From Ohtaekwangia koreensis (GTDB lineage Bacteria > Bacteroidota > Bacteroidia > Cytophagales > Cyclobacteriaceae), in the NCBI RefSeq assembly GCF_900167975.1, contig NZ_FUZU01000001.1:1956580-2020579 (forward strand): 64,000 nucleotides of DNA. Reading direction: 5' to 3'. Shown here in pieces: positions 48,413 through 59,757 of the stretch. The notes below the pieces were generated by a model that was not told the DNA's origin, ran no database searches, and saw only the letters and a list, made by a program, of their open reading frames with translations. The stretch's first letter is position 1. Each line of letters opens with the position of its first letter. Position numbers and translations under genes: made by a program.

Positions 48413-48591
48413 TTTATAGTCCCTTGCCTTATTTTAAATTTGCCTACGTTTTTGTCCCTCATATTTCAGTACTAAATCACCGGACAGCCGTACTTTAACT
48501 TCACAAATGAAGATCGAATGAAATGAATACCTTCATATTTCTTCGAAAACATTTATGAAGAAGGCAACCATTTTTTTAAACCCCACGTCTG

Positions 48592-49179
48592 GTGGAAGAT
48601 TCTAAAAATACCTTGGAGGACCCAAAGCAGATAAAAGCGTTGCTTCATGATTGTCAGAAAGGCAATCGCGAAGCACAGAAGAAGCTTTATGAGCTCTTCT
48701 ATGGCTATGCTATGAGTGTTTGTCTGCGGTATACAAAAACAAAAGAGGAAGCCAAAGAGATAATGAACGATGGTTTTATGAAGTTTTTTACGCACATGCA
48801 TCAGCACGATGAGCGGGCTTCAGTCAAATCGTGGCTGCGAAGAATCATGATAAACACAGCTATCGATCATTATCGTAAGCACAACAAACACTATAATCAT
48901 AAAGATATTGATGATACGGTTGTTCAAAATATTCCGGATAGTACACAAGGCACCGAGCCTATATCGTATGACGATCTGATTCAGATGGTACAAAAATTAC
49001 CAGATTCTTATCGTACCGTTTTTAGTCTATATGTTATTGATGGATACTCCCATGAAGAAATAGCAAAGCAACTTGGAATTGTAGTCGGTACCTCCAAGTC
49101 AAACTTGTTCAAAGCGCGCGAGCATTTGAAAAATCAATTGAAAAAAATAAACGTTAACAGCTATGCGCAATATTTCTGA
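48592..49179 (+). CDS. ECF RNA polymerase sigma factor
   Basis: A 195-residue sigma factor. Region 2: SVCLRYTKTKEEAKEIMNDGFMKFFTHM and SWLRRIMINTAIDHYRK; region 4: LPDSYRTVFSLYVIDGYSHEEIAKQLGIVVGTSKSNLFKAREHLK, a helix-turn-helix that reads the -35 box. The start is GTG: a stop codon lies five codons upstream and no in-frame ATG follows in between. The stop overlaps the next gene by 17 bp, so the sigma factor and its likely membrane-bound antagonist are translated together. It should direct transcription of its own operon and perhaps others; targets are unknown. Confidence 0.92.
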   Translation: MEDSKNTLEDPKQIKALLHDCQKGNREAQKKLYELFYGYAMSVCLRYTKTKEEAKEIMNDGFMKFFTHMHQHDERASVKSWLRRIMINTAIDHYRKHNKHYNHKDIDDTVVQNIPDSTQGTEPISYDDLIQMVQKLPDSYRTVFSLYVIDGYSHEEIAKQLGIVVGTSKSNLFKAREHLKNQLKKINVNSYAQYF

Positions 49180-51865
49180 TAACGAACTGGATAAATTATT
49201 CCAGAGTGCTGCGCAGGGTGTACAACCTGAATTTGATCCTGAGGATTGGGAGAAGCTATCGAAACGTTTAGCATGGAACGACCGGGTAAGCCTCTATAAA
49301 AAAATTGCTATATATACTTCTGTTGTTTTATTAATTAGTGTTTTATCCTGGTGGGGTATTCAACAGTATAGAATGCCGGATAGTACTAACAATTCTATGC
49401 GAAATAAAGCATTAGGAACAGAGGAGGCGTCTCATCAGGATACAGATGTGGATTCACAAACTGATTCGCAAGGAGAAGAGACGATGGCGAAAGATTCGTC
49501 TTCTCAGGATGACCTCTTGGCCCAGCGCAGTTCTTCTACTGATAATAAAGTAGATAACTCGGATCGTAAATATACTGATAGCACTTCTAAGGATATTGCT
49601 ATGCCGTCGGCACGCGAAGAAATTGCATCATCGAAAGGTACCCATGATGAGAATGTCAATAAGACAGGTAATGTTGATCTTAAGAATAAGGAAGCACGAT
49701 CCATCAATACTATATCTTCGTCAGAGCCATCTGGAACACCTGCTGATACGCATGTCGCAAAATCAATAAAAAGAAAGAAGACTACAAACCAAATAAGGGA
49801 GCAGAGCACAACTAAAGATGCAACTGCATCTATCAATGGTAGTTCACAAACATTAGAAGCTAACGTTAATTCAATTGATGCTACGAATTCTTCAGTAGTG
49901 TCCAAAGGGTTGTCAGGGACTGTGAAAAATCAAAAGGACGCTAAAGAGATGAAATCGCTACATGACGAAAATGGAATGACCAAGACATCTGGTCTTAATG
50001 AATTAGAAAATAAGAGTCAGGAACATATAGCTAATTCTACTTCCGACAATTCCAATTCAGATTCCTATACTGCTCCTAACTCAAATGCCGTTAGTAATTC
50101 TAATAGTAGTTCTAATTCCGATTCTAGTTTAGAATCAAACGCTTCGAGATCGAGAAGCGAACATGTGTCTAAGGAAGGGGCAGCACATGATTCAAATATT
50201 GCCACTGATATACATGGCGTTAATCGTACAACAAAAAACGATTCAACGAATAATGCTCCTATAGGTGATACGAAGATTGATTTGTTAAAAAGTAACATTT
50301 CGATTTCTGAGGATAAAAAACTGAATGCTAAATCTGGGTCATACAACAATAGCAATGTTTCTCATGATGCTTCCAGTGTAGCAAGTGTAACAGAAAACGA
50401 TACAACAGATAACGCTTCTATAGGTGATAGGGAAAATGATTTGTCAATAAATAACAGTCAGATTTCTGGGGATAAAAAATTGAATGATAAATCTGTGTCG
50501 TCTGACAATAGCAATGTTTCTCAAGAAGCTTCCAGCGTAGCAAGTGTGACAGAAAACGATACAACAGATAACGCTCCTATAGGTGATAAGGAAAATGATT
50601 TGTCAATAAATAACAGTCAGATTTCTGGGGATAAAAAATTGAATGCTAAATCTGTGGCATCCGATAGTGATGTTTCTAAAAAAACTTCCGGTATAGCAAG
50701 CGTAACAGAAAATGATGCAAGAAGTAGTTCTTTGCAACGTGACTCCTTGTCTGGTAAAGTATATATACCAGTTGACGCGAAAAACAAAAACTTGCAGAAG
50801 AGTAGTAAATCGAATTCGTATGGCTTGGATGAACGCACGAATCATCTTTCTAAAACAGACAGTGTAAATATTGCAAAGGATTACTCTTCTGATAAATCGT
50901 CTCAGGCCGGAAAGGTAAGACAGCTTCCGACTGACCAGATTGCGAATGAAGATTTTCAAGGTGATACCTTGCACGCTAGAAATGGAACAAGGAAATCAGG
51001 CGCTATAACGGGTAGTAATAATTCTTCGCCTGATAAGAATGCATCTGCTATAAATAAGAGCATCGCAGATGAGCAGCTCTCGTCTGCTTCCATTGTTAAT
51101 TCTCGTGACTCAGTAGAAAAGGAATTCGATAGAACTCCTTCTTCAATATCAAATTCGGGGGATCATAAAACTATAGCTTCTGAAAAAGATAGCTTAGATG
51201 TGAAGGCTGATTCGATTGCACGCAAAATCACTGGTGAATCCTTGGATACAACAGCGCAGAAAAAGAAGCAACACATTGCTTCGAAGTGGTATATCAAGCT
51301 TTTGGTATCACCAGATTTCACCGCTATAGGATATAATAAGCCTGGGAAAGCTGGGGTAAACGCTGGATTGATGGTGGAGTATAGTCCAATGAAACACTGG
51401 GGGATAAGTATAGGAGGCATTTGGTCTAAAAAACTTTACGGTATGAATGATCCCGGTAAATCCTATAATTATGGTGGTGCATCATTTGATGCAGATTATC
51501 TCGATGGTGATTGCCGGGTACTGGATATACCTATCAATATAACATACTATATAATGCCTGAGTCACGTTTAAATTTTTACATCTCAGGTGGTGTTTCCTC
51601 GTACATCATGTTGAAAGAAAATTATGTATATACCGTATGGGAGAATAACACCAATTACTATTATTATGAGAATTATAATAATAAGAATAACAACTGGTTT
51701 AGCATGCTGAACCTTTCATTCGGATTACAATACCGAATGAATAATCGATTCATGTTTCAGGTGGAGCCGTTTTTAAAAGCACCAGTTGCTGGTGTTGGAG
51801 AAGGCAAGGTTGATCTTGTAAGCATAGGGTCCTTCTTTTCCTTAAAGTATAAAATCACTAAATAG
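49163..51865 (+). CDS. Dual-membrane-spanning anti-sigma-like protein with outer-membrane beta-barrel
   Basis: A 900-residue protein. Residues 1-45 (DNELDKLFQSAAQGVQPEFDPEDWEKLSKRL) look like the short cytoplasmic sigma-binding region of Bacteroidota anti-sigma proteins. Residues 47-66 (IAIYTSVVLLISVLSWWGI) are one inner-membrane helix. Residues 70 to about 704 are an extremely long Ser/Asn/Asp/Lys-rich, presumably disordered linker with three 53-residue tandem repeats (363-519). Residues 705-900 are a beta-barrel (WYIKLLVSPDFTAIGY, LDIPINITYYIMPESRLNFYISGGV, ending FFSLKYKITK). This is the architecture of the Dma family known from Bacteroides, in which one chain links sigma factor control to the outer membrane. 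No signal peptide is seen, as expected. Role here is inferred. Confidence 0.75.
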   Translation: MRNISDNELDKLFQSAAQGVQPEFDPEDWEKLSKRLAWNDRVSLYKKIAIYTSVVLLISVLSWWGIQQYRMPDSTNNSMRNKALGTEEASHQDTDVDSQTDSQGEETMAKDSSSQDDLLAQRSSSTDNKVDNSDRKYTDSTSKDIAMPSAREEIASSKGTHDENVNKTGNVDLKNKEARSINTISSSEPSGTPADTHVAKSIKRKKTTNQIREQSTTKDATASINGSSQTLEANVNSIDATNSSVVSKGLSGTVKNQKDAKEMKSLHDENGMTKTSGLNELENKSQEHIANSTSDNSNSDSYTAPNSNAVSNSNSSSNSDSSLESNASRSRSEHVSKEGAAHDSNIATDIHGVNRTTKNDSTNNAPIGDTKIDLLKSNISISEDKKLNAKSGSYNNSNVSHDASSVASVTENDTTDNASIGDRENDLSINNSQISGDKKLNDKSVSSDNSNVSQEASSVASVTENDTTDNAPIGDKENDLSINNSQISGDKKLNAKSVASDSDVSKKTSGIASVTENDARSSSLQRDSLSGKVYIPVDAKNKNLQKSSKSNSYGLDERTNHLSKTDSVNIAKDYSSDKSSQAGKVRQLPTDQIANEDFQGDTLHARNGTRKSGAITGSNNSSPDKNASAINKSIADEQLSSASIVNSRDSVEKEFDRTPSSISNSGDHKTIASEKDSLDVKADSIARKITGESLDTTAQKKKQHIASKWYIKLLVSPDFTAIGYNKPGKAGVNAGLMVEYSPMKHWGISIGGIWSKKLYGMNDPGKSYNYGGASFDADYLDGDCRVLDIPINITYYIMPESRLNFYISGGVSSYIMLKENYVYTVWENNTNYYYYENYNNKNNNWFSMLNLSFGLQYRMNNRFMFQVEPFLKAPVAGVGEGKVDLVSIGSFFSLKYKITK
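50249..50720 (+). repeat. Three tandem 159-bp repeats in the linker of the anti-sigma-like gene
   Basis: The word ATAGGTGAT recurs at 50261, 50420 and 50579, exactly 159 bp apart, and the flanking codons (GDxEND.SINNSQISGDKKLN.KS, then SVASVTENDTTDNA) match. Copies 2 and 3 are nearly identical at the DNA level; copy 1 and the far end are diverged. The unit is 53 residues. Confidence 0.9.
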
Positions 51866-51869
51866 TTAT

Positions 51870-52685
51870 ATGAGGCGTAGTGCAAAATTTGTCATCATTG
51901 GTTTTCTTTTTGTCTTTTTTTTGGGATGTACCAATCACGTTGAAAAAGAAGCAGTGGATTGTGAAGTAAATAAACCTGAAGTATCGGTAGAGGCCAAAAC
52001 AGATCCTTCCAATTGTGATAGTAATGATGGATCGATTACAGTTGCAGGCACAGGTGGAGAACCTCCTTATCAGTTCAGTATAAATGGCGGTACCTATCAG
52101 TCATCCGGAATTTTTGCAAGTCTGAGTGGTGGTACTTTTTTAATAACTATACGCGATGCTAACGGATGCGAGAATCTGGTTGAGAGCACATTGGTGATTA
52201 AGTCCTCGGATTTGGCAGCTACCTATGAATCAACTGAAGACACCGAGTGCCTTACTGATAACGGAACGATTACAATCATACCAACAGGAACAAACTCTCC
52301 CTTTGAATTTAGTATAGGATCGGGAAGCTTTGGGACAAGTGCAGAATTCTCTGATCTGAAGAATGGTACATATATCGTGAGAATCAGAGACTCGGAAGGA
52401 TGTGCTATATCTCTGAATGCAACAGTAGCCAGAGGTGAGACCGGAACTAGTTGGAGCTCGGAAATTAAATCGATCATCGATACGAATTGTGCTATATCTG
52501 GTTGTCACGTCAGTGGTCAGAGTATTCCAAATTGGGCAGACTTGTCCACTGTACAGAAAAACGCGAGTGATATAAAAAGACGCACGGGAAATAGATCCAT
52601 GCCTCCCGCAGGACAGCCGGCCCTTTCACAGAGTGATATCGACAAGATTGCTTGTTGGGTAGATGACGGTGCAAAGAATAATTAA
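51870..52685 (+). CDS. Lipoprotein with SprB-type repeats and a cytochrome-c-like domain
   Basis: A 271-residue lipoprotein; signal peptide FVIIGFLFVFFLGC with lipobox LGC. Two SprB-like repeats follow: DPSNCDSNDGSITVAGTGG...YQFSINGG and ECLTDNGTITIIPTGTNSPFEFSIGSG, each ending in an ITIRDANGC/VRIRDSEGC stretch. The C-terminal third resembles the planctomycete-type cytochrome c: SIIDTNCAISGCHVSG, with Cys207, Cys212 and His213 spaced C-x4-C-H instead of the usual C-x2-C-H, and a distal RSMPPAGQ that could supply a Met ligand, then IDKIACWVDDGAKNN. It should hang on the periplasmic or outer face of a membrane. It starts 4 bp after the anti-sigma-like gene. Confidence 0.7.
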   Translation: MRRSAKFVIIGFLFVFFLGCTNHVEKEAVDCEVNKPEVSVEAKTDPSNCDSNDGSITVAGTGGEPPYQFSINGGTYQSSGIFASLSGGTFLITIRDANGCENLVESTLVIKSSDLAATYESTEDTECLTDNGTITIIPTGTNSPFEFSIGSGSFGTSAEFSDLKNGTYIVRIRDSEGCAISLNATVARGETGTSWSSEIKSIIDTNCAISGCHVSGQSIPNWADLSTVQKNASDIKRRTGNRSMPPAGQPALSQSDIDKIACWVDDGAKNN

Positions 52686-52714
52686 TAGACTTCAAAACTT
52701 AAACATTATCGATT

Positions 52715-53242
52715 ATGAAAATTCATTTAGCTGTGTTGTTAATATGCTCGGCACTTGGCACAAACGCACAAAAATACAGTGTAGCGAAAAGTCAGATCAC
52801 CTTTTTTTCGCACGCTACCTTAGAGGATATTAAAGCGGATAATACAAAGGCCTCAAGCGTATTTGATGCTTCTACTGGTAACATAGCTTTTATTATACCT
52901 GTAAATGAATTCCAGTTTAAGAAGTCATTGATGCAAGAGCACTTCAATGAGAAGTATATGGAAACTGAAAAGTACCCTAAATCTACTTTTCAAGGAAAAA
53001 TTTCGGGATATGATCCAAGTGCTGCAACACAGAACGTAAAGGCTCAAGGTAAGCTTACCATTCACGGGGTAACGCGTGATGTTGAAATTCCTGGAACAAT
53101 CGAAAAACAAGGTGACAACCTTGTAATGAAATCAGTTTTTATAGTTCGTCTCGAAGATTATAAAGTACAGATTCCAAAATTGATGTGGCAGAACATCGCG
53201 GAGCAGGTCGAGGTAACAATCAATTTTACATACAAACACTAG
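52715..53242 (+). CDS. YceI family periplasmic protein
   Basis: A 175-residue protein with signal peptide MKIHLAVLLICSALGTNAQ. The rest is a YceI lipocalin-like barrel: KSQITFFSHATLEDIKADNTKASSVFDASTGNIAFIIPVNEFQFKKSLMQEHFNEKYMETEKYPKS, then KLTIHGVTRDVEIPGTI. YceI proteins bind isoprenoid chains in the periplasm and are often made under stress or with cytochromes. It is the fourth gene of the sigma operon, 29 bp after the cytochrome-like lipoprotein. That pairing with a cytochrome-like protein and a DUF5777 barrel recurs in Bacteroidota, which suggests a shared function in isoprenoid or redox handling. Confidence 0.88.
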   Translation: MKIHLAVLLICSALGTNAQKYSVAKSQITFFSHATLEDIKADNTKASSVFDASTGNIAFIIPVNEFQFKKSLMQEHFNEKYMETEKYPKSTFQGKISGYDPSAATQNVKAQGKLTIHGVTRDVEIPGTIEKQGDNLVMKSVFIVRLEDYKVQIPKLMWQNIAEQVEVTINFTYKH

Positions 53243-53252
53243 AAGTATACAT

Positions 53253-54152
53253 ATGAAGTTATTTATAAAAAGCGTTTCGCGACTAAATATAGCTTTCATT
53301 TTTTTATTCGGATCTCCCGTTTTTGCTCAGGATGATCTTTTAAAAGAGTTAGAAAAAGAATCAGATCAGAAGTCATCCGCCTATACTTCACAAGCGTTTA
53401 AAGGAACTCGATTAATTAATGGACATTCGGTGGAGACCATTGGCGCGGGCACTTTGGAGTTTATTTTCTCTCACAGGTTCGGACGGTTAAATGGTGGCCT
53501 TTACGAAGTGTATGGTTTGGATGATGCTTATGTCAGATTGGGATTGGAGTATGGCGTTACCGATAATTTCGGGATTGGTATTGGAAGAAATTCGGTTGAT
53601 AAAACCGTAGATGGATATCTGAAATACAAGTTTTTGAAACAATCGAGGGATGGAGCTCCGGTTACAATTACAGCATTTGGTAGTACGGCTTATAAGACAT
53701 CACCCCGCGATGCAGATGTACCCGCTGGTTTTCAACGCTCAGATCGGTTAGCTTATACCGCACAGCTTCTGTTTGCACGGAAATTTACTCCTGCATTATC
53801 GCTTCAATTCATGCCAACATTAGTGCATAAGAACTGGGTTGCGGTAAATGAGGGGGATAACAATCAGGTCGCTCTTGGTGTTGGAGGGCGAATAAAGGTA
53901 ACTCCAAGTGTATCCGTGAATGCAGAGTATTATTATCGTGTCAATCCTAGCGATGCTAATTCATATAAGGACGCAATCGGTATCGCCGTAGATATTGAGA
54001 CCGGTGGACACGTTTTTCAGATCATATTAACGAACACACGGGGTATGATTGAACGCACATTTGTTACCGAAACTGATGGAGATTTTTTCGATGGAGATAT
54101 TCATCTTGGATTTAACGTCACCAGGGCATTTCAATTGAAAAGAAAACAGTAG
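53253..54152 (+). CDS. DUF5777 outer-membrane beta-barrel protein
   Basis: A 299-residue exported protein (signal peptide RLNIAFIFLFGSPVFAQ). After a short helical lead (DDLLKELEKESDQKSSAYTSQAFKGTRLINGHSVETI) it is all beta: GTLEFIFSHRFGRLNGGLYEVYGLDDAYVRLGLEYGVTDNFGIGIGRNSVDKTVDGYLKYKFL and more strands to a C-terminal FNVTRAFQLKRKQ. This matches DUF5777, an outer-membrane barrel often next to YceI and cytochrome-like genes. It probably sits in the outer membrane. Last gene of the sigma-factor operon, 10 bp after YceI, before a terminator. Confidence 0.87.
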   Translation: MKLFIKSVSRLNIAFIFLFGSPVFAQDDLLKELEKESDQKSSAYTSQAFKGTRLINGHSVETIGAGTLEFIFSHRFGRLNGGLYEVYGLDDAYVRLGLEYGVTDNFGIGIGRNSVDKTVDGYLKYKFLKQSRDGAPVTITAFGSTAYKTSPRDADVPAGFQRSDRLAYTAQLLFARKFTPALSLQFMPTLVHKNWVAVNEGDNNQVALGVGGRIKVTPSVSVNAEYYYRVNPSDANSYKDAIGIAVDIETGGHVFQIILTNTRGMIERTFVTETDGDFFDGDIHLGFNVTRAFQLKRKQ

Positions 54153-54623: not shown

Positions 54624-55253
54624 ATGGTAAAACTAATTGTAATTGATGATCACGCATTGTTTAGAATTGGCCTTGTATCAATATTAAAAAAGGACCCAAG
54701 ATTTAATGTGGTAGGAGAGTTTAGCAGTTTTAGTGCGGTGCGGTCGCATGTTCCGGATTTAAATGCGCACCTCGTTTTGATTGATATTTCCCTGGACAAG
54801 GAAAGTGGTTTGGATGTTGCAAAATATTTCAAGGATAAAAAGCCAGGAGTAAAAGTCGTCATCCTGAGTTCTCATAAAGAAGAGTTTTATATCGTGAATG
54901 CAATGGAAGCAGGCATTGACGGCTACATTCATAAAGATGTGGAATCTGAAGAATTGATATTAGGACTGCATAAAGTTCTGCAAGGTGAAAAGTTCTACTC
55001 TCTAGAAATATCCAATCTTCTTGTAAGCAGTCTTTATAAGAAATCTTATCGTGGGCTTCCCTTCTTAACGAGCAAGGAAAAAGAAGTGGTGAAATATCTG
55101 ATAGAGGGTTGTTCAAGCAAGGAGATCGCTGCGCGTATGGAAGTTAGTCCTAGAACAATTGAAACACATCGCGCTAATGTTCTTGGAAAATTTGATTTGA
55201 AAAACACAACCGAACTGGTCGCTAAGATCGCTGAACAGAAAATTAGGTTTTAA
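54624..55253 (+). CDS. LuxR/NarL-family response regulator
   Basis: A 209-residue regulator. Receiver domain 1-120: acidic pair Asp8-Asp9, phosphoacceptor Asp54 in VLIDISLDKE, a Ser/Thr-type switch (VVILSSHKEE) and a Lys (YIHKDVES). The C-terminal HTH is LuxR/NarL-type: LTSKEKEVVKYLIEGCSSKEIAARMEVSPRTIETHRANVLGKFDLKN. It binds DNA as a dimer when phosphorylated. The hybrid histidine kinase starts 100 bp downstream in the same direction, so this is its probable output, or one of two if the kinase's own receiver has another target. Confidence 0.92.
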   Translation: MVKLIVIDDHALFRIGLVSILKKDPRFNVVGEFSSFSAVRSHVPDLNAHLVLIDISLDKESGLDVAKYFKDKKPGVKVVILSSHKEEFYIVNAMEAGIDGYIHKDVESEELILGLHKVLQGEKFYSLEISNLLVSSLYKKSYRGLPFLTSKEKEVVKYLIEGCSSKEIAARMEVSPRTIETHRANVLGKFDLKNTTELVAKIAEQKIRF

Positions 55254-55353
55254 GTATATATAAGCAAACTGTATTTATAATTGAGTCGTGGTTAAAGGAT
55301 TCAAACAAAATATGTTTGAATGAAGAGAAGGACATCATTTGAATAAGCATGTC

Positions 55354-58300
55354 ATGAAAAGGAATATTATTTCCTGGTTATTTCTCTGGGTTCTCCTGGG
55401 TAATAGTAACATTGCGTTTGCACAAAATAAAAAGATCGATAGTCTTAATGTAGTCCTGAAAGTTCTTCATCAGGATTCTAACCGTGTCAATACATTAATT
55501 CTTTTGTGTGACGCGCAATCGCGTATCGACAACGAAAAAGTCCTGCCCGTTGCCAATGAAATTCTCGCGTTATCTGAAGAGATTAATTTCCCGGAGGGAA
55601 AGGCCCAAGCCTATATATTTCTAGGTGTATACAATAACAGAGCAGGGAAAATTTCGCAGGGAATTGATTTTTTCCTAAAGGCGCTGCGAGTATATGAAAC
55701 ACTTCAGGATACGAATCATATAGCGGTCTGCTATAACAATATAGGTGTCATTTATCTGGCGCAAGAAAATAATAGAGTTGCTTATGAATATTTCAGCAAA
55801 GCACTTACTGCCTGGGATAAGTCAAAATGTAACAGAGGTTCGGCCCGGGTACTGAATAACATTGCAATCGTTTATGAAAAGGAAAAAAAGGATTCGTTGG
55901 CCTTAGTGTATTATTATCGTGCTTTAAAATTAAATGAGGGACTTGAAGATAAAGTCGCCTCCAGTTGGATACTCAACGCTATCGGTAAAATCAGTTTTCG
56001 AAGAAATCAATTCGCAGAGGCACTTATGTATCAGCAAAAAGCCCTGCAACTCGCAAGTCAAGTAAAGTCCAATAAACAACTCCCCGCTATATATGGGGCG
56101 TTCAGTGAAATATACAGAGCGCTTAATAAGCAAAAGCTTGCATTGTCTACAGCAGAAATAGCGTTGGACTATGCGTTACAAGTAAACTCTAAAGAAGAAA
56201 TAGCGGCAAGTTATAATCTGATTGCAAAAGCGTATGAAGCACAACGGAAATATAATTTAGCCTATACATATCAGTCTCTATATCTAACACTGAACGATAG
56301 TTTGCAAAAAACCAAGAATAACTCTGCTATAGAGAAGTTTAGGAATAATTATGAAATGGAGAAAAAAGAAAAAGAAATCTCCTTTTTATCGCATCAGCAT
56401 CAGGAGGAAATTCATAAGAGAAATACAATTCTAATTGCTCTTGCCGGTATTGTCTGTGTCTTTTTGCTTATCATAAGTCGTCAGCGTCTTAATGTAAAGA
56501 AAAGGCTTGAAGTAGAACGTAAGAATTTTGAATTACTCCAGGAGCAGGCACTTCGCCACGAAAGCGAGGCAAAGTATAAAACACTTATTGAAAGTACATT
56601 ACTTGGGGTATCTATAGAGAAGCGTGGGAAAGTTATATACGCTAATAAAAAGCTACTAAATATTTTCGGTTATGCGAATATGGATGAGTATAGTCTAATA
56701 GATCCCATTCACATCACCGATCGTTGTACACCTGAAACTAAGCTGTTTATTGAAGATTTGCAGCGTTCACAAAAAGAAGGTAGAGATACCGTTCAATCAT
56801 TCATTGGACATTTTTACGATAAGGATAATAAGGTTCGCTCTTTTGAAGTTCAAATAGGTGAGATCATGGTTGAAGGTGACTTATGCAGAATGTATGTTCT
56901 GATTGATGTTACTGATAGGCTGGCTGCTGAGAACGCATCAAGGGAGATGGAAAAACTGTTCAGACTGTCGCAGCACTTTTCAAACATCGGAAGCTGGCGT
57001 TGGAGTTTTCATACGAAAGATTTATTGTGGTCTGATATAACCTATAAAATATATGGTGTAGATCATACAGAGAAAATTACAGAGCAAAAATTCTTTGAAT
57101 GTGTTTACCCGGACGATCATGCTATAGTTATAAACAATGCGATTGAAAGTATAGGGAATGGTGAACCCTATCAGGTGGAACATAGAATACTTTTACCCAA
57201 CGGCCAGATACGCTGGATCAGGTTAAAGGGCGATGTCTTCAGGGATTCAGAAGGACAGCCTATTGAAATTTTTGGTGTTGCGCGCGATGTAACCGAATCG
57301 AAACAAATAGCTGAGGAACTTCGATTAAGCAAAGAGAAGTATAGGATATTAGCAGAGGCTGGCCATGAGATCATGGGGCTTTACGATCTCAAGGGTATAG
57401 TGCAGTATGTTTCACCTGCGATTACACATTTACTTGGCTATTTACCCGAGGATAAGGTTGGCAGAAAGATAGTAAGCGATATCATTCATCCGATGGATAG
57501 AAGACAGTTGATGATGGCTTTCAGAAAGGCGAGTGTGCATTCGGAAGAATCAGTCATGGTCAAGGTAAGGATGCGGAGAAAAGATACGCAGCAATATGTG
57601 TGGTGTCAGAAAAGTCTTCGTGCTATAAAAGATAAAGAAGGAGTAATTACGGCTATCCGTTCATTGACGAGAGATATAGGATATGAGATTGCGTATGAAA
57701 CAAAATTAAACCAGTCGAATGCACGTCTGACAAACTCAGTGAGGGAATATAAATCCCTGAATAAGAAGTTGAATAATTTACTAAAGGAACTTGGAAAAAG
57801 ATCGAAGCAGCTTGAGAGCGCCAACTATAAATTAACTGTGTCACAAACAACCTTAAAGCAAACCTACGAACAGTTAAAACTGAAGACGGATGCGCTGAAT
57901 GAAATAGCTATAATTGTTTCATGTGATGGTCAAGGTAAAATTTCGCATGTGAATTCGTTGTTCGAAAAAATAATGGGATATGAACAAACGGAAATTATAG
58001 GTAATACATATCATGACTTAAAGTCTACGCTATACGATTCTCCGGTACATGATGCACGTTTCTTTGCTGGGATATGGCGTGAATTAACGGAAGGAAAAAA
58101 TTGGTCTGGAGAGGTTTGTTATAAAGGTAAAGATGGTAGCTATATTTGGTGTCTCAAGCACATGATACCATTGTTCAATAATGGTACATTCGATGGATAC
58201 TTTTCATTTAGCTATGATATAACATTTGACAAAAAACGAGAGGCCGAACTTATAGAAGCGAAGTTGATAGCAGAAGCCGCTTCAGCAATAAAAGAAGATT

Positions 58301-59757
58301 TCTTATCGGTCATGAGTCATGAGATACGGACACCACTGAATTCGGTTATAGGACTATCAAACTTGTTGCTAAAGAAAAAGCCAAGAGAAGATCAACAGGA
58401 AATCATCAAGACGCTAAAGGGCTCCAGTGATAACCTGATGCATCTTGTAAATGATATACTAGACTATAATAAAATACAAGCTGGTAAAATTGAGCTCGAA
58501 GAGATTGCGTTTAATACTCTTGAATTCCTTCAGCAGTTCAGATCGGCTTACCTTCCAATTGCTTCAGAGAAAGGACTTGATTTCAAAGTGACTGCAGATG
58601 CCATGATTCCATCGATGCTGAGTGGAGACTCTATGCGACTTAACCAAATACTCAATAATTTGGTGAATAATGCAATGAAGTTTACGCAGAGCGGTTCCGT
58701 TAAAGTAACGGCTTCATTGGTTTCAAAGAATGAGAAGCAGTGCCGGTTGTTGTTCGAAGTAATTGATTCAGGAATTGGTATAGCAGATGATAAGCTTCCG
58801 TTGATCTTTATGCCATTTCACCAATCTGAAAAGTATATATCTCGAAAATTTGGTGGTACAGGTTTAGGACTTTCCATAGTGAAAAGCCTCGTGGAAATGT
58901 TAGGCGGAGAGATTTCTGTAAGAAGTAAAGAAGGCGAAGGATCGACTTTTTCGGTTTCAATTCCATTTGCAATATGTTCGGTTGCCGTTCCTCATGTAAG
59001 TATAAAAGAGATAAATGAAGCAACGTTGGTGTCGTCTTTTAAAGGTTATCGCGTTTTATATGTGGAAGACGTTGAGTCTAATCGCATGGTCGTTGGAAGC
59101 TACTTAAAGGATTGTGAAGTTGAGTGTACTATGGCTTCCGGTGGTGAGCTTGCACTGATTCATACTGCAAATAAAACCTTTGATGTTATTCTCATGGATT
59201 TGCAAATGCCAGGGCTGAATGGATATGAAGTCACAGAAGCAATTCGAACGCAGGAACGTGGGAGAAATAGGCACACACCTGTGATAGCTTTTACAGCCGA
59301 GTCATTGTCAGAAAGCCTGAAGGCAAAGACCGCGATGTATAGTATTCAGGATATTGTTACAAAGCCTTTCCAATTTGAAACACTTATTCAGAAAATAATA
59401 AAAGTTACTCCGCGTAAAAGAGAAGAAGAGGATTTTCTGTCCTTCCAGTTTTACGAGGATGCCTTTGATTATGATCGTGAAGAAATGGAAAAAATTAAAA
59501 AAATTGTGATCAACGACTTCAAGCTTCTGGAAGACAACATGACGAAGTATGTTGCTGAAAAGAATATGGAAGGTATACGGGCCGAAATTCATAAGCTCTC
59601 TCCAATTGTGAAGAATTTGAAATGTAAGGCTCTGATCAAATCATTTGACGAATTCAGAAAGTACGATCAATACTCGCCTTCAATACAGGATTTACACTGC
59701 CAGCTGCGAAAGTATAACAGCATTCTTTACTCTTCAGTGGAAGAACTTCAGTATTAA
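55354..59757 (+). CDS. Hybrid histidine kinase with TPR sensor, four PAS domains, receiver and Hpt
   Basis: A 1467-residue sensor. I chose ATG 55354 (MKRNIISWLFLWVLLGNSNIAFA, signal peptide) over a TTG five codons upstream. Domains in order: TPR repeats (about 60-330, periplasmic), one membrane helix (NTILIALAGIVCVFLLIISR, about 355-375), a coiled coil, four PAS domains (about 405-520, 535-655, 660-780 and 840-960, with the second and third carrying extra charged linkers), HisKA with His989 in MSHEIRTPLNS, HATPase (LNQILNNLVNNAMKFT, DSGIGIADDKLP, GGTGLGLSIVKSL), receiver with Asp1282 in ILMDLQMPG, and an Hpt-like tail with His1413 in EIHKLSP. This is a complete phosphorelay to the response regulator in front. 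The TPR signal is unknown. Confidence 0.93.
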   Translation: MKRNIISWLFLWVLLGNSNIAFAQNKKIDSLNVVLKVLHQDSNRVNTLILLCDAQSRIDNEKVLPVANEILALSEEINFPEGKAQAYIFLGVYNNRAGKISQGIDFFLKALRVYETLQDTNHIAVCYNNIGVIYLAQENNRVAYEYFSKALTAWDKSKCNRGSARVLNNIAIVYEKEKKDSLALVYYYRALKLNEGLEDKVASSWILNAIGKISFRRNQFAEALMYQQKALQLASQVKSNKQLPAIYGAFSEIYRALNKQKLALSTAEIALDYALQVNSKEEIAASYNLIAKAYEAQRKYNLAYTYQSLYLTLNDSLQKTKNNSAIEKFRNNYEMEKKEKEISFLSHQHQEEIHKRNTILIALAGIVCVFLLIISRQRLNVKKRLEVERKNFELLQEQALRHESEAKYKTLIESTLLGVSIEKRGKVIYANKKLLNIFGYANMDEYSLIDPIHITDRCTPETKLFIEDLQRSQKEGRDTVQSFIGHFYDKDNKVRSFEVQIGEIMVEGDLCRMYVLIDVTDRLAAENASREMEKLFRLSQHFSNIGSWRWSFHTKDLLWSDITYKIYGVDHTEKITEQKFFECVYPDDHAIVINNAIESIGNGEPYQVEHRILLPNGQIRWIRLKGDVFRDSEGQPIEIFGVARDVTESKQIAEELRLSKEKYRILAEAGHEIMGLYDLKGIVQYVSPAITHLLGYLPEDKVGRKIVSDIIHPMDRRQLMMAFRKASVHSEESVMVKVRMRRKDTQQYVWCQKSLRAIKDKEGVITAIRSLTRDIGYEIAYETKLNQSNARLTNSVREYKSLNKKLNNLLKELGKRSKQLESANYKLTVSQTTLKQTYEQLKLKTDALNEIAIIVSCDGQGKISHVNSLFEKIMGYEQTEIIGNTYHDLKSTLYDSPVHDARFFAGIWRELTEGKNWSGEVCYKGKDGSYIWCLKHMIPLFNNGTFDGYFSFSYDITFDKKREAELIEAKLIAEAASAIKEDFLSVMSHEIRTPLNSVIGLSNLLLKKKPREDQQEIIKTLKGSSDNLMHLVNDILDYNKIQAGKIELEEIAFNTLEFLQQFRSAYLPIASEKGLDFKVTADAMIPSMLSGDSMRLNQILNNLVNNAMKFTQSGSVKVTASLVSKNEKQCRLLFEVIDSGIGIADDKLPLIFMPFHQSEKYISRKFGGTGLGLSIVKSLVEMLGGEISVRSKEGEGSTFSVSIPFAICSVAVPHVSIKEINEATLVSSFKGYRVLYVEDVESNRMVVGSYLKDCEVECTMASGGELALIHTANKTFDVILMDLQMPGLNGYEVTEAIRTQERGRNRHTPVIAFTAESLSESLKAKTAMYSIQDIVTKPFQFETLIQKIIKVTPRKREEEDFLSFQFYEDAFDYDREEMEKIKKIVINDFKLLEDNMTKYVAEKNMEGIRAEIHKLSPIVKNLKCKALIKSFDEFRKYDQYSPSIQDLHCQLRKYNSILYSSVEELQY

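Follow-up and report, generated by a model that had tools for sequence, protein, structure and literature searches.

TonB-dependent signalling of the FecA/FecR/FecI type connects an outer-membrane barrel to an inner-membrane anti-sigma factor and an ECF sigma factor; the barrel and the anti-sigma factor are separate proteins, and the signal is carried by the receptor's own signalling domain. A second plan, that of the dual membrane-spanning anti-sigma (Dma) proteins with a neighbouring ECF21 sigma factor, has been described for Bacteroides (PMC13088901), where, according to the available part of the report, Dma1 and Dma2 affect vesiculation and polysaccharide loci. The window, by which we mean the whole stretch of 64,000 nucleotides of Ohtaekwangia koreensis DNA that was analysed, contains an operon of five genes, all on the + strand, in which a sigma factor gene is followed by a gene for a likely member of the Dma family, set against the Bacteroides proteins by domain plan and not by sequence. 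The features of this operon are as follows:

48563..48592, + strand, putative sigma-dependent, autoregulatory promoter GGCAACC-N16-CGTCTGG (from CAACC-N16-YGT conservation)
48592-49179, + strand, ECF-type sigma factor ORF as listed, from GTG 48592
48613..49179, + strand, ECF-type sigma factor, 188 aa, with the TTG 48613 start inferred from the motif and homologs
49163..51865, + strand, putative Dma-like dual-membrane anti-sigma factor, 900 aa (Pfam, hydropathy, barrel profile)
49163..49303, + strand, N-terminal cytoplasmic part, residues 1-47, putatively sigma-binding, with invariant Trp29 (alignment of 30 homologs)
49304..49360, + strand, single inner-membrane helix, residues 48-66 (mean hydropathy 1.96 over 19 residues)
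49361..51277, + strand, periplasmic linker, residues 67-705, probably disordered, about 19% Ser, 10% Asn and 10% Asp (composition, dN/dS)
50230..50720, + strand, tandem repeat within the linker, 159 bp x 3.1
51278..51862, + strand, C-terminal outer-membrane beta-barrel, residues 706-900 (OMP_b-brl_2 profile)
51512..51514, + strand, solitary conserved cysteine C784, the only Cys of the protein (same column Cys in 68/74 barrels)
51870..52685, + strand, lipoprotein with SprB-type repeats and a probable class I cytochrome c-like domain, CX4CH (CAISGCH) (Pfam, alignment, profile match)
52715..53242, + strand, YceI-family exported protein (PF04264, E 1.8e-18)
53253..54152, + strand, DUF5777 beta-barrel (PF19089, E 5.1e-92)

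The order of the five genes and the 17-bp overlap between the sigma and Dma-like ORFs (49163-49179) are as a sequence-only reading of this DNA had placed them, and Pfam backed each of the gene names, the cytochrome domain falling below its curated cut-off. The sigma protein matched Sigma70 r2 and r4_2 in Pfam and exceeded the TIGR02937 cut-off, its assignment resting on general ECF matches, and the YceI domain scored 67.8 bits against a Pfam cut-off of 23.7. After a gap of 471 bp the operon is followed by a response regulator and a large hybrid histidine kinase (window 54624-59757), a pair that is kept in three close relatives (L065-L067) and was not seen in L068 and L069.

Of 98 related genomes searched with the whole Dma-like protein, 32 gave a match (E up to 0.001), and a profile built from 32 barrels found matches in 118 of 291 genomes from the order (E up to 1e-15). 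We assembled 73 loci, made up of 33 from the whole-protein search and 40 of the 55 best barrel-profile matches; eight of the other 15 were already in the set and seven were passed over. An adjacent sigma gene was found in 65 of the 73 loci by our first distance rule and in four more where the start of the Dma gene had been set too far upstream, which gives 69; in the remaining four, a contig end falls no more than about 160 bp from the Dma gene. The sigma and Dma genes overlap in 67 of these 69 loci. The genome of the window holds two further pairs of a sigma gene and a fused Dma-like gene with other downstream genes (L102:659-3323 and L112:2581-4498, encoding 708 and 459 aa, respectively); the L102 protein matches the barrel profile (20 bits), and the L112 protein was judged Dma-like by its general look only.

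By hydropathy, the strongest hydrophobic stretch near the N-terminus of the Dma-like protein is residues 48-66. The conserved segment ahead of it carries an invariant Trp in all 30 aligned rows, an alignment made without L075, L076 and L090, which are cut by contig ends, and L095, which gave no BLAST match, was also absent from the first alignments. No consistent Pfam family, and no Pfam anti-sigma family, matched the N-terminal part of the Dma-like proteins. At the other end of the chain, OMP_b-brl_2 was recognized in the window protein at 33.1 bits (Pfam cut-off 27), and 26 of the 32 barrels that were aligned matched it with E up to 0.01, the first barrel alignment having been made without L090. 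Compared with solved structures, a profile of the barrels hit segments of other outer-membrane proteins three times, each time weakly (best E 0.0048), and AlphaFold, run on the barrel with a two-sequence alignment of the window and L064 only, returned no usable model (pLDDT 28.8). Between helix and barrel, residues 71-700 are hydrophilic on average and contain 19% Ser, 10% Asn and 10% Asp with no Trp or Cys. Hydropathy, composition and the OMP_b-brl_2 profile thus bear out the earlier claim that helix, linker and C-terminal barrel lie in one chain, and the same features, joined to the adjacent sigma gene in 69 of the 73 loci, uphold the resemblance to the Dma family that had been proposed with it.

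The three parts of the chain have evolved very differently. A comparison of the window with L065, its closest relative, gave dN/dS values of 0.06 for residues 1-70, 0.46 for the linker and 0.06 for the barrel, so that the linker value is about eightfold that of both ends; a second pair, L066 and L067, gave 0.03, 0.36 and 0.03, values that are less reliable with dS near 1.5 to 1.8. Identity between the window and L066 was 64, 23 and 75% for the N-terminal part, linker and barrel, respectively. That the N-terminus is as constrained as the barrel bears on the possibility that the protein is an anchored outer-membrane or envelope-tethering protein that does not regulate the sigma factor: such a protein would fit an N-terminal part lacking a match to any Pfam anti-sigma family, but the constraint, the constant pairing with a sigma gene (overlapping in 67/69) and a plan that is the same as in the Dma proteins studied in Bacteroides, as far as the available text describes them, argue against it, and we regard it as very unlikely.

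The length of the linker, given earlier as a 635-residue repeat linker, was correct at about 640 residues, but the repeat was overstated, since tandem repetition is confined to 50230-50720, about 164 residues or roughly a quarter of it. Roughly measured, the linker has 236 to 649 residues in the genus (seven genomes), compared with 142 to 447 residues in the other complete homologs of the same set. The window has the longest open frame (904, the next being 636) among the matches listed from the barrel-profile search of the order. The extreme length noted in the first reading is less informative than it seemed, as the whole-protein search showed frames above 850 in just four of the genus's seven genomes. 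Because dN/dS is relaxed and length is variable, the linker looks like a slack tether or spacer that grew in this genus, in part through repeats. The fact that each complete homolog measured has a linker of at least 142 residues, the longest being in this genus, could be taken to mean that the linker is itself the sensor, for example as a periplasm-width gauge or a peptidoglycan-binding element. However, relaxed selection and a length that varies from about 236 to 649 residues within one genus disfavour a length gauge, and the contour length of the stretched linker, about 229 nm, goes far beyond what is needed to cross the periplasm, which is far narrower; we therefore consider a sensing linker highly improbable. 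A linker of 229 nm can hardly carry tension across the periplasm, which makes proteolytic release or altered barrel assembly likelier than pulling as the means by which a slack tether of this kind would pass on a signal. The linker also contains 11 sites of the form D(S/T)(A,I,L,M,T,V), which we take to be the O-glycosylation-type motif of Bacteroides, between 49388 and 51262, compared with 5.0 expected from shuffles; over 30 proteins there were 79 against 41 expected, much of the excess coming from this genus.

The region upstream of the sigma gene pointed to self-regulation. Of the first 31 upstream regions, 19 carried the motif CAACC-N16-YGT ahead of the sigma gene (mean 0.135 and maximum 2 in 200 shuffles), and other spacings from 8 to 24 occurred in 0 to 4 of these regions. 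In the wider set it was found in 32 of 65 sigma upstream regions (mean 0.61 and maximum 3 in 100 shuffles) and was absent from the other 33; a spacing of 17 occurred in five regions, and each remaining spacing between 12 and 20 in two at most. This fixed spacing suggests that the motif is a putative autoregulatory promoter. In 10 of the 32 regions that bear the motif, a start first becomes possible 20 to 24 bases past it. In the window, TTG 48613 lies 24 bases past the motif and the listed GTG 48592 begins 3 bases past its CGT; since GTG 48592 would sit at or before any transcription start, translation of the sigma factor is likelier to start at TTG 48613. A genome search for the exact pattern GGCAACC-N16-CGTC, which sites departing from it would escape, revealed no wider regulon, as the five matches equalled the number for the reversed control; they comprised the operon's own site, three sites in coding frames and one intergenic site. 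The intergenic copy (G000:C5:472871-472897; L196 near 1501) has counterparts in two relatives, one of them known only from the match list, and in the other, L209, the motif is kept with a changed spacer. In both L196 and L209 it lies beside an acetyl-CoA-synthetase-like gene, and in L196 it lies ahead of a glycosyltransferase-like gene, names that were given by the look of the sequence only.

Downstream of the Dma gene, on the same strand and within 5 kb, a cytochrome-type domain was detected in 33 of the 73 loci, YceI in 48 and DUF5777 in 38, each time together with YceI. A Rieske-type protein was found in 17 loci, using a model built from five of them, and all three of the Rieske-type proteins tested exceeded the Pfam Rieske cut-off; none of the 17 loci had a cytochrome as well. 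A lipoprotein with PF03640 repeats adjoins two of the Rieske-bearing operons, before the sigma gene in one (L080:1425-2261) and after the Dma gene in the other (L078:4887-5756). The gene order that had been noted in the window is shared by a subfamily: an electron carrier, cytochrome or Rieske, and YceI are both present in 47 of the 73 loci, a proportion that is not a population frequency, the loci having been chosen by likeness and being biased to the subfamily of the window. The carrier type changes at least twice among carrier-bearing loci on a tree of sigma, N-terminus and barrel, which was made by a quick method with no bootstrap and leaves out L090; because the tree is unrooted, its midpoint root serving for drawing only, no direction of change can be read from it.

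As a control, we scanned 52 of the 72 sigma-type matches in the genome, leaving out the window's own and 19 weaker ones. None of these 52 loci had a cytochrome-type, Rieske, YceI or DUF5777 gene, within a reach of about 4 kb past the sigma gene in 48 and 2 to 3 kb in four, which is shorter than that used for the Dma loci and so favours the reading of a redox cassette. At an equal reach of 4 kb past the sigma gene, a carrier or YceI was found in 46 of 69 Dma loci, compared with none of the 52 controls, and both were found in 37 of the 69. The first reading's hint of a redox process gains from these counts and from the 47 loci with carrier and YceI, but cytochrome, Rieske and YceI were all missing in 22 of the 73 loci, two of which have less than 2 kb of sequence. 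With these 22 loci, and with loci picked by likeness, the redox link can hold for no more than a subfamily. The 22 loci would also suit an ordinary Dma-type regulator of envelope state or vesiculation as in Bacteroides, one that senses the state of the outer membrane or glycans and has the redox genes downstream as passengers, and the effects of Dma1 and Dma2 on vesiculation and polysaccharide loci are in line with such a role. Against passengers stands the recurrence of carrier and YceI in 47 loci, which has outlasted the exchange of cytochrome and Rieske; moreover, the neighbours of dma2 are different genes, encoding DUF4943, DUF4858 and an enoyl-reductase-like protein in the available part of the report (PMC13088901), compared with the cytochrome c-like lipoprotein, YceI and DUF5777 here. 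We regard this alternative as rather unlikely, although it is the likeliest of the alternatives considered here.

The lipoprotein of the window contains SprB repeats and a region matching Cytochrome_CBB3 below the Pfam cut-off. Across 20 aligned domains, the two Cys, the His and a Met suited as distal ligand are invariant, the motif being CX4CH in 19 and CX2CH in one; 17 of the 20 matched Pfam CBB3 at E up to 0.1, and a profile of the domain matched a cytochrome c6 in the PDB (E 3.6e-5). Among the 33 cytochrome-type loci, 17 have CX4CH, 15 have CX2CH only and one has neither (no C-X2-4-CH). Another study, in the part available, counts CX4CH among the heme sites (PMC5566968). The domain is probably class I cytochrome c-like, and the lipoprotein a putative electron carrier.

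The barrel of the window protein has a single cysteine, C784. With L090 now included, 68 of 74 proteins (the 73 loci and the window) have Cys in the same column; exactly one Cys is present in 66 of the 74 barrels, and in the whole chain of 55 of the 73 homologs. By comparison, the genome encodes 17 barrels of the same Pfam family, and 13 of them lack Cys in the domain. The way in which long and short loops follow one another would place C784 at a strand's outer end. Cys occupies its column in all 51 proteins that have a carrier nearby, and also in 17 proteins without a carrier; the six proteins that lack it have no detected carrier, and one of these six has YceI and DUF5777. The association is significant when relatedness is ignored (Fisher p 0.0005), but ancestry may explain it, because most of the six Cys-less proteins sit on distant or long branches of the tree.

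We consider it likely that the operon encodes a Dma-type one-chain sensor that controls an envelope electron-transfer cassette through its own promoter, possibly sensing redox through C784. At the inner membrane, the Dma-like N-terminus would retain the ECF sigma factor; a long, slack linker would span the periplasm and the C-terminal barrel would sit in the outer membrane. A trigger at the barrel, which might be a ligand, the redox state of C784 or failed assembly, would lead to release of the sigma factor, most likely with the exposed linker being cut first and the membrane helix next. The freed sigma factor would transcribe its own operon through the GGCAACC-N16-CGTC site, giving more sigma factor and more Dma, together with the cytochrome c-like lipoprotein, YceI and the DUF5777 barrel as a putative envelope electron-transfer cassette. 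A bolder and more doubtful version is that the protein is a thiol-redox sensor at the outer membrane, in which the unpaired C784 would read the redox state at the cell surface or that of a docked electron carrier, and one chain would relay it through both membranes to the sigma factor, which would adjust an envelope electron-transfer chain with either cytochrome c or Rieske as its carrier.

The cytochrome-YceI-DUF5777 cassette also occurs apart from the sigma and Dma genes. Of 295 genomes sampled from the class, 259 carry DUF5777, and YceI adjoins it in 24 of the 30 best of those loci; these cassettes have the same kinds of gene as that of the window, and no sigma or Dma gene was seen in the 30 loci, whose flanks of only 1.5 kb are too short to exclude one. 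A second copy in the genome of the window encodes a CX2CH lipoprotein, and in 8.5 kb of sequence there BLAST matched neither the sigma nor the Dma protein. The cassette is thus widespread in the class and seemingly little studied: the literature that we searched held no mention of DUF5777, and a limited search found nothing on point for these genes or their combination, so that prior publication is possible.

Compared with signalling of the FecA/FecR/FecI type, the barrel, which is small, and the anti-sigma-like part are here one chain. A split arrangement exists in the same genome at L098:151-2513 (G000:C2), where a sigma gene is followed by a gene for a 263-aa protein with a Dma-like N-terminus, a helix, a polar tail and no barrel match, and then by an overlapping gene for an outer-membrane-type protein. 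This paralog shares a similar N-terminus (25.3 bits to the N-terminal profile) and the same 17-bp overlap with its sigma gene, but, unlike in the fused window protein, its barrel-like protein is the product of a separate gene. The closest described system is Dma2/Das2 of Bacteroides thetaiotaomicron (BT_1558/BT_1559), which, in the available part of the report (PMC13088901), has an N-terminal sigma-binding part, as is proposed here, and shares one helix, a long disordered tether, a C-terminal barrel and an adjacent ECF sigma factor. Deletion of dma2 raises das2 and neighbouring genes, its own operon (PMC13088901, same part), which is the same kind of self-control as that proposed here. Neither a barrel cysteine nor the length of the linker came up in that part of the paper, and the words cytochrome, YceI, Rieske and redox are absent from its main text (PMC13088901). 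The subfamily described here, with its small and testable set of genes, conserved cysteine and motif of fixed spacing, offers an entry point to the signals of one-chain sensors and may point to the use of Dma-type sensors outside gut bacteria. In comparison with the known systems, the Dma plan itself is already known, and what is new is the operon of this subfamily, C784, the promoter-like motif and the relaxed linker.
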